64,000 nt of DNA from Clostridia bacterium (lineage in GTDB: Bacteria; Bacillota; Clostridia; Christensenellales; Aristaeellaceae). A model generated the notes under the pieces. The model made no database searches and had not been told where the DNA came from. It saw only the letters and a program-made list of their open reading frames with translations. This document shows positions 34,713-63,130 of the stretch, piece by piece. The position numbers and the translations under genes were made by a program. Each line of letters starts with the position of its first letter. The first letter of the stretch is position 1. The stretch lies in contig JAFXQO010000034.1 in assembly GCA_017527065.1 (NCBI GenBank), forward strand, positions 1-64,000, in the 5' to 3' direction.

Positions 34713-35143
34713 ACATGGAATATGAGCTTATCAATCCGAGCGATCCGTACACCTTTATAGCAGCTGATAGAGAAGTTGCCGCGCTGGTCATTGGGAATTT
34801 GAGCCTTGCGTTTGGAGCGGAAACAAAGGACGAGGCCGAGGAGGACAGGGTGCCGATCTTCATGTTCGGCGGCTTCGACGAGTGGTATCAAAAGGAGTTC
34901 GGAAGGACGCCGACGGAGGGCATGGCGGCCAGAAAGAAAGAGGTCGGCGACGCGCTGGCGTCCTTCATGCTGGGGCGCTTTGAGGACAGGGAGAGATACA
35001 ACGCCGCCCTGGAGGCCATCGACGATCCGGCAAAAGCCGAGGCTTTCAAGGAGAAATGGCAGGACGGGCGGACGAGCCTTAACAATATCGGAGGCGTGGC
35101 ACACAGCATTGGAAAGAAGCTGCTCGCAGCGGGTGATAAATAA
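34709..35143 (+). CDS. Phage protein, unknown
   Basis: A 144-residue acidic protein that overlaps the methylase by 4 nt. It has a FGGFDEWYQKEFGRTP segment and a helical C-terminal half. No family recognised. Confidence 0.6.
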   Translation: MNMEYELINPSDPYTFIAADREVAALVIGNLSLAFGAETKDEAEEDRVPIFMFGGFDEWYQKEFGRTPTEGMAARKKEVGDALASFMLGRFEDRERYNAALEAIDDPAKAEAFKEKWQDGRTSLNNIGGVAHSIGKKLLAAGDK

Positions 35144-54100: not shown

Positions 54101-54852
54101 ATTATGATTTTGCGGCCTGGGATTTGCTCTTTGGAGAAGCCAGCCAACACGCAGAGGACTACAAGATCACCGTTCCTGTTGAGCCGGATTTCCAGGAGGG
54201 CGAAATGCCAGACATGGAGCCTATCGCGGTGCCTATTCAGCCGAGGGTTGAGGGCGAGGACGCCATGACCAGCCTGCAAGATCAGGGTGTAACGGTGGAC
54301 GTTGGCGCAGACGCAACGGAGCTGACGGCCACCATCGACGGCGCGGACGGACAAACCCTGATGGAGTACGTCAGCGGCGACGCGACCGACCTCACAATGA
54401 CCATCACGGATCAGGACGGGCGCGTGCTGACCGAGAATGTGACGGGCAACGCTTCCTCCCTGGCGGCCATCATCAGCAGCTATAACGGGCGGACGATCAC
54501 AGTCAACATCACGGGACGAAAGTTGTTTGCCGAGGGCGGACGCGCGACCAGCGCTTCCATATTCGGCGAGGCTGGGCCGGAATGGGCCATCCCGGAGGAA
54601 CACAGCGAACGGACGGCGGCCCTGCTGAACGCGGCGAGGGAGGCCAGCGGCTTCACCTGGCCGGACATCCTGGCCCGGTTCGGCGGACTGAACAGCAACC
54701 CGGACAACCAGCCGACGACGATCATTTACAGCCCGACCATCCACGCGGCGGACGCAACGGGCGTCGATCAGGTGCTCCAGGAGGACAAGAAGCGGCTGGA
54801 TAAATGGTACGAGGAAAAGAAGATGCGGGATCAAGTGGAGGTGTATTCATGA
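51139..54852 (+). CDS. Tail tape measure protein
   Basis: A 1237-residue protein from GTG 51139, by far the longest in the window. It is helical and Ala-rich, with the TMP core (AISEAAHAGWDFDQIMSGIPAAM, MIRNSMMRL) and hydrophobic segments near residues 420-470. Its length would set a tail of roughly 180 nm by the usual 1.5 angstrom per residue. Confidence 0.93.
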   Translation: MASQTLETVIAINARVGNGFSQVGATLTELGSMVNGVSQQLINFGKDSVNVYREYEKSMADAQVALSTTYGRGTQQLNTVMSQLDVAATEWAATTIFHTNDVANAISEAAHAGWDFDQIMSGIPAAMQLAQAGGLDLSEAVNYIVKSTNAAGIGFEDMGHFIDLWAFAANSSASTIGEFGDAMLRMGSTMRFAGNTEELMTLIAVTANAGSVGSEAGTMIRNSMMRLIAPTDKAGKAMAQLGATSTETASILGDEALAAANAELAAHGFSAFYQDGPQKGQMKNVLDIYRELYVALGDIAGGYENIDRNGDALGVLSAIFPTRTITEALTLLRGAAEGYDGLYEAMRGGDAEGYGQYAAETMMDTLDGKIETFESKVERLKQLVGEELSGQVETATGFIGSMVDKIAELPEEQLSALVTGLEVIAAAGPGLMLAGGAFRMIGYLLTPAGGIGMGLIALTAAAAAIQQLEEADFAKNFGNMELDTQGIQSYVKSLGEDFKAAYTEVDGFKTALDNAVTSYQTASSTFSATLFQDMLTNTKLTEADKQQLQQLGIDMYTAVQEAITQSTAASMSYWQTLFGGDGTAEYDPAYAQIIELTNQAYEDALAEASSISEGLRAAMTSAFADGQISNDEYQNILSYMRSYNDAIARAAAEAQSEEDYIKMGKWLKQAQGASLEDIQTLATTATSERDQILADQEERFQTEYFRAQYRGADAETLARAEALHRQEQMRVNSAYDDFLFTLWDSQIQQSGQSENYAKLATWAQQYLNGTVDAQTALDTIYGIMGGSRYSDTGGSNDTDRGHLGRMMGYMIASMGGEQGVADRIDYYESIGNSEMAQRMRNALAMEQLVNGFSTVQIKDDWLTSFLNGSDFTTTGQINENTGAGIMKYGEYQRNLAMMEGMRNQDYDVSIARATVAAFGKGSSLQGYFDAIGQSVNEGTVRAISGASLKGNAAREYDNIIERLMQNYDFDRILADSSSFLAQKGNAYNYDFAAWDLLFGEASQHAEDYKITVPVEPDFQEGEMPDMEPIAVPIQPRVEGEDAMTSLQDQGVTVDVGADATELTATIDGADGQTLMEYVSGDATDLTMTITDQDGRVLTENVTGNASSLAAIISSYNGRTITVNITGRKLFAEGGRATSASIFGEAGPEWAIPEEHSERTAALLNAAREASGFTWPDILARFGGLNSNPDNQPTTIIYSPTIHAADATGVDQVLQEDKKRLDKWYEEKKMRDQVEVYS

Positions 54853-59422: not shown

Positions 59423-59593
59423 ATGACTTACAAGCTGATGAAGCGGATCATCGAGAACGGCATCAAGAAGGGCAATCTTGACCGCGAATCCACCTTGCAG
59501 AAGCTCGACGTTTTCCTGATGGCTGACCGCATCACCGTGGAGGAGTACCAGGAACTCGTCGAAATGATGGAGGAGGGCGGCACGGATGAATAA
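59423..59593 (+). CDS. XkdX-like small protein, copy 2
   Basis: A 56-residue paralogue of copy 1 (MTYKLMKRIIENGIKKG ... LDVFLMADRITVEEYQEL) with GGAGGTAAACACC before the ATG. An in-frame ATG at 59342 would add 27 residues and overlap copy 1. The end overlaps the DGR target start. Confidence 0.6.
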   Translation: MTYKLMKRIIENGIKKGNLDRESTLQKLDVFLMADRITVEEYQELVEMMEEGGTDE

Positions 59594-60800
59594 CAGCCCT
59601 CTTGAATTTCTGGCGAAGAAGTACGGTAACGTCGTGAAGTACGACGCGGACGGCAACGTGGCCGGTATCTTCGTCAAATTCCCCAAAATGAAAAGCTCCG
59701 ACCTGGTGGCGGGGTTGCCGGAGCACACGCACCCGGCCTTTATCATCAATGGCGTGGAGCAGGATTACATTCTGCTTGGCAAGTACAAGGGCGGCGAGAA
59801 CGGCGTTTCCGGCGGCGCACTGGTGAGCCTGCCGAACATCAACCCGGCCCGGAGCCTGGGCGCGGATCAGTGCCTTTCCCGCATGAAGCTGGCTGGCCCC
59901 GGCATTACCGGCATGACCTGTGCGGACTACGGCTTTATCAAGCTGCTGGCGCAGAAGAACGGCTGGAAGCCGCACGGAAATACCGCCTGGGGGCAGGCGC
60001 ACCAGGACGCGAGCGCCTGGGAAACCGGCAAGGCGCTGTCTGTGAACACGGAAAGAGCCTACAACGGGTACATTTACAAGTGCCTGATTGCCCACACCAC
60101 GGCGGCGGAGCTGCGGCCCGACCTGGCCCCGACCTATTGGGAGAAGGGCAAGTTTGTGGGCGGCATCAGCAACGACGGCACGCCCGACGCGGCCCATCAG
60201 ACAGGCTATCGGACGCTGAACGGCACCGGCCCGCTTGACTGGTATCTGGGCAGCGACCCGGCCCTGCTGGCGGACATCATCGGCTCCAGCCTGGAACAGC
60301 AGTACGGCTACCGTATCGTGGACTGTGAGCTGCAAATCCTGGAGAACAACAACGCCGCCGACCCGGACGCCGACCTGTCCGCTTCTTCCGCCGCGTGGCG
60401 CGCGATCCTGCCGAACACCAGCGACAACGGTTACACCCTCGTCGCCCCCGGCACGGCTGGCACGCTTCATTGGAACTGGCTGAACGGGCATATCACCCTG
60501 GACACGCAATGCGACGACCTGACCGTGGGCAGCAAGGGCGAGAGTTTCAGCACGGTTGCGGTGAACACCACGCGCCTGCCTTATGTGCCGAGCATCGTTT
60601 ACGAGCTGGGCCTTATCAAGACAGGCGCGGGCGACGATACCCCCGGCTATTACTACGTCAACTTCGTGGCAGGCGAGCGCTTCCCCCGTCGCGGCGGCTC
60701 CTGCACCCACGGCAGCAGCGCGGGGCTTGGCTTTGTCAATGCCTACAACGAGCGCGGCCTCGCCTCCGACATCTTTGGGTGCCGCCCCCGCTCCCTCTGA
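59586..60800 (+). CDS. DGR target: tail-tip receptor-binding protein with variable C-type-lectin end
   Basis: A 404-residue protein. A phage-collar-like N-terminus (PEHTHPAFIINGVEQDY) is followed by a segment near residues 138-180 (AWETGKALSVN, YNGYIYKCLIAH, TYWEKG) that looks like a small chitin-binding-type carbohydrate module. The C-terminus (GERFPRRGG ... FGCRPRSL) has the C-type-lectin pattern of DGR targets. Variable residues are 372-375, 378, 383, 387, 392 and 394-397. The role, host receptor binding, is inferred from position after gpI and from known DGR phages. Confidence 0.9.
   Translation: MNNSPLEFLAKKYGNVVKYDADGNVAGIFVKFPKMKSSDLVAGLPEHTHPAFIINGVEQDYILLGKYKGGENGVSGGALVSLPNINPARSLGADQCLSRMKLAGPGITGMTCADYGFIKLLAQKNGWKPHGNTAWGQAHQDASAWETGKALSVNTERAYNGYIYKCLIAHTTAAELRPDLAPTYWEKGKFVGGISNDGTPDAAHQTGYRTLNGTGPLDWYLGSDPALLADIIGSSLEQQYGYRIVDCELQILENNNAADPDADLSASSAAWRAILPNTSDNGYTLVAPGTAGTLHWNWLNGHITLDTQCDDLTVGSKGESFSTVAVNTTRLPYVPSIVYELGLIKTGAGDDTPGYYYVNFVAGERFPRRGGSCTHGSSAGLGFVNAYNERGLASDIFGCRPRSL
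60676..60795 (+). repeat. DGR variable repeat (VR)
   Basis: 120 bp, 105 identical to TR (61404-61523, offset 728). All 15 mismatches face A in TR: A to T seven times, A to C five times and A to G three times. VR ends at codon 403; the stop codon follows 3 bp later. The last 19 bp are GC-only apart from T and contain no A, fitting an initiation-of-homing segment. Confidence 0.96.
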
Positions 60801-60865
60801 ACCCCTGGAAACTGAATACTGAACCCCTGACCGGGGCCGCCCGATAGGGCGTGCCCCATCAACCC

Positions 60866-60925
60866 ATTTCCCCGTTATCACGCGCGCGTTAATAGTTTCC
60901 ATGACGCGCGCGTGATGGGGAAAAT
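60866..60925. promoter_or_regulatory. Large hairpin downstream of VR
   Basis: ATCACGCGCGCGT (60877-60889) pairs perfectly with 60904-60916 around a 14-nt loop. After a 3-nt bulge TTTCCCC pairs with GGGGAAA. It is 71 bp after VR. DGRs need a hairpin or cruciform behind VR for homing, though it is normally nearer. No T-run follows on the plus strand, so it is not a typical terminator. Confidence 0.55.
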
Positions 60926-60951
60926 AATATCCGCCGGACGGAGAGAATGAT

Positions 60952-61374
60952 ATGCCGGAATTTAAGTACGACAGGAGCAATCCGGGGCCATGCTGCCAGA
61001 AGATCGACGACATGATCCAATACGCGCGCCCCATCGTGGAGCGCTGGCCGAGCTTCCATAAGCGGAGCCTTGGCGTGGACATCATGCAGGAAATGTACAC
61101 GATGCTGCGGCTGGCAACAAAGGCCCGCCTGCGGTACATGAACAAAAGCACGCTGACCGACCTGGACACCAGCAAGGCCGTGCTGGACATCTTCATCCAG
61201 CAGGCGAACAAGATCATTTTCACGGACAAGAGCGGAAAAACAAGGCGATTGCTCACGGATCAGAGCTACGGCGAATGGTCAAAGAAGATTGACGAGATCG
61301 GGGCTTTGATCGGCGGCTGGATGAATAGCGTATCTGGCCGCAAGAGTGGCGATAGCAGAGGGAACGCTCCGTGA
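60952..61374 (+). CDS. avd: DGR accessory protein Avd
   Basis: A 140-residue helical protein (SLGVDIMQEMYTMLRLATKARLRYMNK, LDIFIQQANKIIF, YGEWSKKIDEIGALIGGWMNS) matching the four-helix-bundle Avd family. Avd forms a basic barrel-shaped pentamer that binds the RT and TR RNA. It lies between VR and TR as in BPP-1. The start is ATG 60952 with GGAGAG upstream. Confidence 0.9.
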   Translation: MPEFKYDRSNPGPCCQKIDDMIQYARPIVERWPSFHKRSLGVDIMQEMYTMLRLATKARLRYMNKSTLTDLDTSKAVLDIFIQQANKIIFTDKSGKTRRLLTDQSYGEWSKKIDEIGALIGGWMNSVSGRKSGDSRGNAP

Positions 61375-61403
61375 TTTGGACGGTCTGAATCCATGCGTTC
61401 TTT

Positions 61404-61523
61404 AGCGCTTCCCCCGTCGCGGCGGCAACTACAACAACGGCAGCAACGCGGGGCTTGGCTATGTCAATGCCAACAACGAGCGCGGCAACGCCAACAACAA
61501 CTATGGGTGCCGCCCCCGCTCCC
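61404..61523 (+). repeat. DGR template repeat (TR)
   Basis: 120 bp starting 29 bp after avd. It contains 28 A, mostly in AAC codons (in the VR reading frame), the codon that can be changed to many residues but never to a stop. Fifteen of the 28 are altered in VR. The ORF that covers TR is not a gene. Confidence 0.95.
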
Positions 61524-61786
61524 AGCATATATTACGCGCCGCGAGATTACGAATCAGCGGCCATCCGCTGATGGGAGGGGTGCGTTTCCTCGGCCCGAAG
61601 GGGCTAAACAATAATCCTGACGCGCGGCGGCAAGAACGCTCCGCAGGAAACGCGCGGCAGGAATCACCGCGAAGCGCCCGGAAGGGCAACGGGCTATGGC
61701 TGTCCGCAGCATACCCTAAAGCGATTTTGGGGCATTACAGTCTATGCCTGACGGAACACGTCACGCGCGGCAGTTCACAGGGCGGG
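61524..61786 (+). other. Spacer RNA between TR and RT
   Basis: 263 bp with no supported gene. In BPP-1 the region after TR is part of the RNA that primes and directs cDNA synthesis, and the same role is expected here. It contains several GC-rich inverted stretches. Confidence 0.5.
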
Positions 61787-63130
61787 GTGAATGTTTTGGA
61801 AGGGCTGCACAATCTGAAAGACCGCATCTGTGATTTTGAAAACCTGATGGGCGCTTACCGGGACGCCGCAAAGGGGAAACGGTATCGCAATGAGGTTTTG
61901 GACTTCTCTTTCAACCTGGGCGCGAATCTGCACCAGATACAGAAAGAGCTACTGGATATGACCTACAAGGTGGGGCCATATCGGGAATTTTATGTACGCT
62001 ACCCGAAGCCGAGGCTCGTCATGGCGCTGGGCTTTCGGGATCGCGTTGTGCAATGGGCCATTTACCGGCAAATCAACCCATATCTGGACAAGCGATATAT
62101 CACGCACAGCTACGGGTGCCGGAAGGGCAAAGGAACGCTGCCAGCGGCGGAGTGCCTGCAAAACTGGCAGCAGAAGATCAGCCGGAAGCCGGACGCGGAC
62201 GAATGGTATCTTATCAAGGGCGACATCAGCAAATACTTTTACCGGGTTGAACACGGGAAGGTGCTGAATACATACGACGAGGTATCAGACGACGCCTGGT
62301 TTCGCTGGCTTATGCGGACGATCATCAATAACCCGGACGTGCCTTTCGGCCTGCCTCCGGGGATGAAGCCGGATGATTGCCCACGATGGCGGCGGCTCTA
62401 TGATGTGGGTATGCCCATCGGCAACCTGACGAGCCAGGAAACGGCCAACCTGTTTCTGGACAAGCTGGATCAATTCATCAAGCGCACGCTGAAAGTACAC
62501 TACTATGTGCGCTATATGGACGATTTCTGCATCCTCGTCAAGGGCAAAGAGAACGCAAAGCGAATATTCGCCGCCATCGAAACCTTCCTTCGGGACGAGC
62601 TGCTGCTTGACATCAGCCCGAAAAGCCGAATCCAAAAGGCGACGGCCCCGGTTGAGTTCGTGGGCTATCTGCTGACGCCACACGGCATCCGCATGAGGCG
62701 AAAGACCACGACGCACATCAAGCGGAGCCTGCGCTTCATCATGGCGGCCTTTGCCGCATGGCAAATCAGCTATGACGCGGCGATGGAAAGCGTGATCTGC
62801 TATATCGGGATGTGCAAGCATTGTAACGGTCACAACATGATCCGCTGGATCGAGGAACACTTTGTACTTCAAAGGTGCGACAATATGAATATTGAGAGCG
62901 ATCAGCCGCCGGGGAGGCGGCATTTTTATACCATCCAGGAGCAGGAGGACGGCACGGTGGACGTGTATCTGCGGCCCCATGTGCTGCCCCTGACGACGGA
63001 GGACGGCGCGACAGACTACGACGTGGAAATGCTCGTTGTGCGAGGCGTGGAGCCGTTCGACGGGATGGAGGAGGACATCAGGGCGCGCTATGACGACTGG
63101 TGCGCCAGCGCGGAGGTGGTCTATTTATGA
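61787..63130 (+). CDS. DGR reverse transcriptase
   Basis: From GTG 61787 the protein has 447 residues. It carries the DGR-type motif IGNLTSQ (211-217) and the catalytic YMDD (243-246), with FRDRVVQWAIYRQINPYLDKRYI and the thumb-side FVGYLLTPHGIRM. TTG 61796, after GGGGTGA, is an equally good start. An open frame continues upstream to 61571, but that part would read through the TR-RT spacer. The C-terminal 81 residues are not RT (see 62885-63130). Confidence 0.93.
   Translation: MNVLEGLHNLKDRICDFENLMGAYRDAAKGKRYRNEVLDFSFNLGANLHQIQKELLDMTYKVGPYREFYVRYPKPRLVMALGFRDRVVQWAIYRQINPYLDKRYITHSYGCRKGKGTLPAAECLQNWQQKISRKPDADEWYLIKGDISKYFYRVEHGKVLNTYDEVSDDAWFRWLMRTIINNPDVPFGLPPGMKPDDCPRWRRLYDVGMPIGNLTSQETANLFLDKLDQFIKRTLKVHYYVRYMDDFCILVKGKENAKRIFAAIETFLRDELLLDISPKSRIQKATAPVEFVGYLLTPHGIRMRRKTTTHIKRSLRFIMAAFAAWQISYDAAMESVICYIGMCKHCNGHNMIRWIEEHFVLQRCDNMNIESDQPPGRRHFYTIQEQEDGTVDVYLRPHVLPLTTEDGATDYDVEMLVVRGVEPFDGMEEDIRARYDDWCASAEVVYL
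62885..63130 (+). CDS. RT C-terminal extension or nested small gene
   Basis: The last 81 codons (MNIESDQPPGRRHFYTI ... CASAEVVYL) are in frame with the RT and have their own ribosome-binding site, AAAGGTG, 7 nt before ATG 62885. The sequence resembles small stand-alone phage proteins. Either the RT is fused to it or both forms are made. Confidence 0.5.
   Translation: MNIESDQPPGRRHFYTIQEQEDGTVDVYLRPHVLPLTTEDGATDYDVEMLVVRGVEPFDGMEEDIRARYDDWCASAEVVYL

Follow-up and report, generated by a model that had tools for sequence, protein, structure and literature searches.

How does the complementary DNA (cDNA) of a diversity-generating retroelement (DGR) find the variable repeat (VR) and spare the template repeat (TR)? 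The process is described as "incompletely understood" (PMC12875486), and the question bears on positions 59586..63130 of a 64,000-nucleotide stretch of Clostridia bacterium DNA (assembly GCA_017527065.1, contig JAFXQO010000034.1, positions 1 to 64,000; hereafter the window), which very probably hold the DGR of a phage with a contractile tail; this phage is likely a prophage. An earlier note on this DNA had read the gene order as target with VR, avd, TR and reverse transcriptase (RT), and this order holds. More than 30,000 DGRs have been published, and three of six lineages occur mainly in phages (PMC8144416). The DGR itself is an ordinary one of a well-known type; the part that deserves the time of specialists is its cis-acting address. 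Between VR and the hairpin that follows it lies an array of CTG units at a spacing of 7 to 8 nt, which we propose is the equivalent of the initiation of mutagenic homing (IMH) element of Bordetella phage BPP-1.

The VR (60676..60795, + strand) and the TR (61404..61523, + strand) align over 120 nt without gaps. The earlier note had counted 15 mismatches, every one at an adenine of TR (7 to T, 5 to C and 3 to G), and no change at any other position; these figures are correct, as TR consists of 28 adenines and 92 other bases, and all 92 are the same in VR. The probability that 15 random mismatches would all land on the 28 adenines is 8e-12. The twelve changed codons of the target that the earlier note had counted are also confirmed; they are codons 372-375, 378, 383, 387, 392 and 394-397. 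A third copy of VR or TR was not found within the window, and when the DNA of positions 60640-61560 was searched against the whole 3.07-Mb genome, it matched the locus itself and nothing else. Homology between the two repeats stops at the GC-rich end, and the flanks beyond look unrelated; unlike in BPP-1, no counterpart of IMH*, the TR-side version of IMH, can be aligned.

The array occupies 60796..60832 (+ strand) and consists of five CTG units spaced 8, 7, 7 and 8 nt apart, the first of which contains the stop codon of the target gene. The full interval between VR and hairpin reads T CTGAACCC CTGGAAA CTGAATA CTGAACCC CTGACC. All 17 sequences chosen from the clade of the window (related loci are cited here by L numbers) have the 8-7-7-8 pattern; this set was hand-picked and leaves out L015, L016, L020 and L050-L052, and L051, which stands outside it, has no chain. 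Within the ten distinct sequences of this set, CTG is invariant at 15 of 15 columns and the base that follows it varies, as do 16 of the 19 other columns. The idea that the array is unique in the window was rejected, as another five-unit YTG chain is found at 34776 and a four-unit chain at 54110. The chain at 34776 lies on the + strand with 7 to 8 nt spacing, far from the DGR, and is probably due to chance.

The periodicity is also found in other DGRs. It was first sighted as the pattern CTG.{4,6}CTG, which occurs in 37 of 45 redundant loci (one contig being counted twice) and in 2% of shuffles. In 38 non-redundant intervals, 69 pairs of TG are separated by a lag of 7, compared to 15.3+-3.7 in shuffled sequences (maximum 27 in 300 shuffles), and 27 by a lag of 8, compared to 15.0+-3.7. 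The corresponding lag-7 counts in control stretches are 4 in the TR flank and 7 both upstream of VR and after the hairpin. A later set was assembled with three other RTs as queries (77 loci, 26 non-redundant) and with the interval fixed without the hairpin; it is not fully independent, as the flanks of the query phages were already known beforehand. This set gave 24 pairs at lag 7 versus 7.2+-2.3 in shuffles, and 16 pairs at lag 15; none of 500 shuffles reached either count. The 13 pairs that it gave at lag 8 were reached by 14 of 500 shuffles. Its TR side gave 5 at lag 7 versus 4.3. Of 127 redundant loci, 38 have a chain of at least four YTG units that starts at the VR end, and none has one starting at the TR end; elsewhere, 15 such chains were found on the same strand of 1.12 Mb and 24 on the opposite strand. 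For chains of three units, the VR end has 56 and the TR end 2.

The link to a known function comes from BPP-1, where a 21-bp IMH with five mismatches sets directionality (PMC3240598; PMC4891356). This IMH makes up the last 21 bases of VR. Its TG units are 8 and 7 nt apart; BPP-1 has about three units where the window has five. Three of the five differences between IMH and IMH* replace the ACC of TR by the TGA of VR, which creates the middle TG unit. Because the array coincides with the BPP-1 IMH, whose differences make a TG unit, it is a plausible general form of IMH, and we infer that it has a role in marking the site where cDNA is written in.

By analogy with BPP-1, a complex of RT and Avd would copy the TR RNA into adenine-mutated cDNA, which would then likely replace VR. 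The write-in site is predicted to comprise the GC-rich end, the CTG heptad array and the hairpin, and the latter two, neither of which TR has, would distinguish the recipient VR from the donor TR. Avd is a five-fold ring, and the spaced triplets read by the TRAP protein offer a comparison for unit-wise reading of the array; our guess is that the array, being repetitive, is recognised by a partner that also repeats, for example the Avd ring. A literature search combining DGR, Avd and pentamer returned no paper. The proposal as a whole is that the IMH of many phage DGRs consists of three to five YTG units at 7 to 8 nt spacing, serving as an address label on the recipient and not on the donor, and read unit by unit by a repeating partner, e.g., the five-fold Avd ring. 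This reading is tentative, and we put its probability at roughly 0.4.

Several counts weigh against a general role of the array. Chains are missing in 32 of 62 non-redundant loci and present in the other 30, where the chain of Faecalibacterium phage FP_Lagaffe was scored as missing as it lies further from VR. Universality was rejected: 19 distant named phages have a TR/VR pair, and 16 of them are without a chain of three; the three with such a chain are VP58.5 and VHML, which have near-identical flanks, and Mushu. These named phages derive from 21 that were hand-picked for breadth among 60 listed of 128 records, and two of them, cr55_1 and LBR48, gave no TR/VR. The 32 chainless loci nevertheless have self-similarity on the VR side at lags 7 and 8 (z 5.1 and 4.8 relative to plain shuffles), compared to z 1.2 and -0.3 after TR, where the maximum is 3.0 at lag 9. 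The array is unreported in the parts of the DGR literature that were searched (PMC3240598, PMC8144416, PMC12875486, PMC10743442, PMC3521204, PMC4891356, PMC4372165, PMC6642488, PMC5006420, PMC6328139, PMC6199706 and PMC5883640), and most subscription papers lie outside that search. For archaeal DGRs, a different short IMH motif is described (PMC4372165).

A period of 7 equals 1 modulo 3 and each repeat shifts the frame by one, which might suggest that the array serves only as a three-frame stop signal after retrohoming. This would fit the finding that 61 of 109 units have an A after TG. However, the invariant CTG of the clade sequences, followed by a changing base, speaks against it, and pairs at lag 7 or 8 without A after either TG number 21 compared to 9.5+-2.6 in shuffles (maximum 16 of 300). 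Stops in all three frames are present in only 8 of 30 intervals, which is near the 20% of shuffled sequences. Stop signalling accounts for part of the pattern, and as the sole explanation it is unlikely.

The array leads directly into a hairpin at 60833..60857 (+ strand; GGGGC-CGCCC-GATA-GGGCG-T-GCCCC) with a 10-bp stem, one bulged T and a GATA loop that fits the GRNA class. A class of GRNA-loop hairpins after VR has already been published (PMC3240598). Such a hairpin is found at most 60 nt from VR in 105 of 128 DGR loci, i.e., the redundant set with a TR/VR pair, compared to 3 of 128 on the TR side and none of 128 in a stretch about 600 nt upstream. A tally of 35 of 35 came from a hand-picked list, and 105 of 128 is the wider count. 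Two points weigh against placing the hairpin of the window in the write-in site: it begins 37 nt past VR, slightly outside the published range of 4-34 bp (PMC3240598), and the strict GRNA hairpin is absent from 23 of the 128 loci.

A second and larger inverted repeat, with perfect 13-bp arms and a 14-nt gap, follows 19 nt after the target hairpin (60877..60916, with no strand assigned). Its first arm is seen again in L004, L045, L007, L008 and L047, and it could be a terminator or a second cruciform. Since it could be a terminator, and since array and hairpin sit where the target gene ends, array and hairpin might instead terminate transcription of the tail gene or act on the stability of its mRNA, and have nothing to do with retrohoming. 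This we consider very unlikely, as array and hairpin trail VR in DGRs of very different phages and hardly ever trail TR. BPP-1 also has IMH and hairpin at the same place, and mutations in the hairpin affect homing (PMC3240598).

The template side of the DGR has its own conserved element. The 3' end of TR and the spacer up to RT (61504..61795, + strand) form a structured RNA in which positions 61509-61524, at the TR end, pair with 61572-61584 (spacer stretch TGGGAGGGGTGCG). The 272-nt spacer shows block-wise conservation across 24 relatives aligned with the window, and RNAalifold, applied to 18 sequences, gave 48 pairs, 26 of which have changes on both sides. In total, 96.3% of the cells are paired, compared to 86.3% in shuffles and 35-44% in slid versions, and four of five measures are above all 500 shuffles. 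The fifth measure, further pair types, was reached in 240 of 500 shuffles, and the spacer of the window folded alone is unexceptional (z -1.18), the support coming from the alignment; both points weigh against the structure. An Rfam search of the DGR including its spacer gave no match up to E 1, and therefore none to RF03022, the family of the BPP-1 spacer, while the Cruim01 spacer belongs to RT-15. The spacer of FP_Lagaffe is likewise without an Rfam match. Judged from sequence, the RNA is a candidate new family of Clostridia-type phage DGRs. The spacer of BPP-1 both recruits bRT-Avd and primes cDNA (PMC12875486), and by analogy the spacer RNA of the window is likely to bind RT-Avd and to determine where the cDNA starts.

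The earlier note had read the changed codons as a sign of recent or ongoing use, and had suggested a comparison of VR and TR in reads of one population. This comparison was run on assembled relatives instead. The expected pattern of many VRs beside one TR was found: 6 of 6 phages (window, L004, L057, L006, L045 and L046) share the same TR, and there are five VR alleles (window, L004, L057, L045 and L006) that are all distinct; the L006 allele is without its first 2 nt, and the fetched piece of L046 holds no VR. Across the five alleles, 23 of 28 A sites are variable, compared to 1 of 92 non-A sites. L004 and L057 are 99.6% identical (42 mismatches over 11,367 nt), and they differ by 14 mismatches in each of two VR copies and at 1 of 1,090 positions in the target outside VR. 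The window and L045 differ at 16 of 120 positions in VR and at 17 of 1090 in the rest of the target. Because near-identical sisters have the same TR but differ in VR, there is strong sequence evidence that the DGR was recently active, in agreement with the earlier reading. Two points weigh against this: the evidence comes from assemblies and not from reads of one population, and the single variable non-A site is a C>T in L045. It might also be argued that the cassette is a relic, i.e., a once-working DGR that is now silent and whose VR differences are old, and the genome is indeed a fragmented metagenome-assembled genome (MAG) of 85 contigs. However, RT, Avd, TR, VR, hairpin and spacer RNA all look intact, and the concentration of differences in VR, in both the L004/L057 and the window/L045 comparison, makes a relic highly improbable. 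The two sisters provide a clean natural case of near-identical phages in which a rewritten VR is the main difference.

In both L004 (1154-4660) and L057 (4773-8279), the target gene is tandemly duplicated as 1,755-nt exact copies, and the junction is the same in the two contigs, at about window 61054 to 59288. The duplicated VRs are identical within each contig and different between contigs, which reflects either homogenisation or an assembler loop.

The target gene (59586..60800, + strand) encodes a 404-aa TaqVP-like C-type-lectin protein, likely at the tail tip. TaqVP (PDB 5VF4), the variable protein of a Thermus aquaticus prophage DGR, adopts a C-type-lectin fold and has VR at its C-terminus as in the window (PMC6328139). 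The two proteins can be aligned across both halves, with a phmmer E of 1.2e-31 and a Foldseek E of 1.3e-23; the mean predicted local distance difference test score of the structure model, 68.6, weighs against the assignment. VR thus appears to lie within a C-type lectin protein of ligand-binding type, with binding predicted from sequence and model. A lectin-type tail tip of this kind would have its binding surface varied at at least 12 codons, which would alter phage attachment. Unlike TaqVP, the target has an additional CBM5/12-like module between the aligned stretches, at about residues 144-185 (window 60015-60140). The module scores 24.2 bits against CBM_5_12, where the cut-off is 26.2, and it also matches solved chitin-binding domains. 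It is possibly a second, constant binding surface within the lectin-fold target.

The avd gene (60952..61374, + strand) encodes 140 aa that match PF22296 over the cut-off (4.8e-19) and also phrog_3206, while the match to NF033474 is below its own cut-off. RT (61796..63130, + strand, 444 aa, with YMDD at 62513-62524) matches phrog_1423, "Reverse transcriptase", at 1e-110 and RVT_1 over the cut-off. It is about 30% identical to the RT of BPP-1 (brt; tblastn 2e-38) and contains an IGNLTSQ motif, which we take to be significant for a DGR-type RT. The full open reading frame 61571-63130, starting at ATG 61571, was rejected as the RT gene. Upstream of RT, the four nearest relatives (L004, L005, L006 and L045) keep the frame open, but stops interrupt it in L046 and in relatives further away, and the stretch is conserved structured RNA; ATG 61571 is therefore not a likely start. 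The alignment suggests that RT likely starts at TTG 61796, behind GGGGTG and in line with the ATG of L051. The last ~80 residues of the frame (62885..63130, + strand) are a C-terminal extension that represents a fused downstream gene for a small phage protein, which is a separate gene in nine relatives (L014-L018, L020 and L050-L052). This protein has 26 unnamed matches, some identical to the query, and a predicted fold of a beta-sheet plus helix; it matches no PHROG, and at E 0.001 its fold resembles none in PDB.

A myophage of Clostridia-like origin, as proposed in the earlier note, is supported by genes for the sheath (phrog_23), tape measure, baseplate, terminase and portal, and by the closest named record, a MAG of an "uncultured Clostridia bacterium" with 98.7% identity over 8.4 kb. 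The sheath protein has no Pfam match. A phage-integrase gene lies just beyond the window, at contig position 65803-66411, and the phage is therefore likely temperate. It is presumably integrated in the chromosome as a prophage. The same genome contains a second DGR (L173; G000 contig C72:9000-20000, minus strand), whose VR and TR of 130 nt have 14 differences, every one at A. Its RT has 377 aa (phrog_1423, 2e-84), its Avd-like protein matches phrog_3206 (4e-9), and its target has 1306 aa with DUF6273. The flank of its VR has ATCC-type repeats and no TG chain.

Among known systems, BPP-1 has the same gene order and A-only mutagenesis. Its VR likewise has a GC-rich end and is followed by a GRNA-loop hairpin, and a structured spacer RNA lies between its TR and RT. 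The RT of FP_Lagaffe is 46% identical to that of the window, and its DGR has the same position among the tail genes. The TG chain has 3 units in FP_Lagaffe and 5 in Mushu, and VR variation in virion reads has been reported for these Faecalibacterium phage DGRs (PMC5883640). Their targets differ from that of the window, and in FP_Lagaffe the gene after RT is annotated separately and overlaps the RT end, whereas it is fused in the window.

For DGRs more widely, a short periodic element on the VR side that matches the BPP-1 IMH makes the question of targeting directly testable by mutation and binding, and the array provides a sequence signature for spotting real DGR targets.

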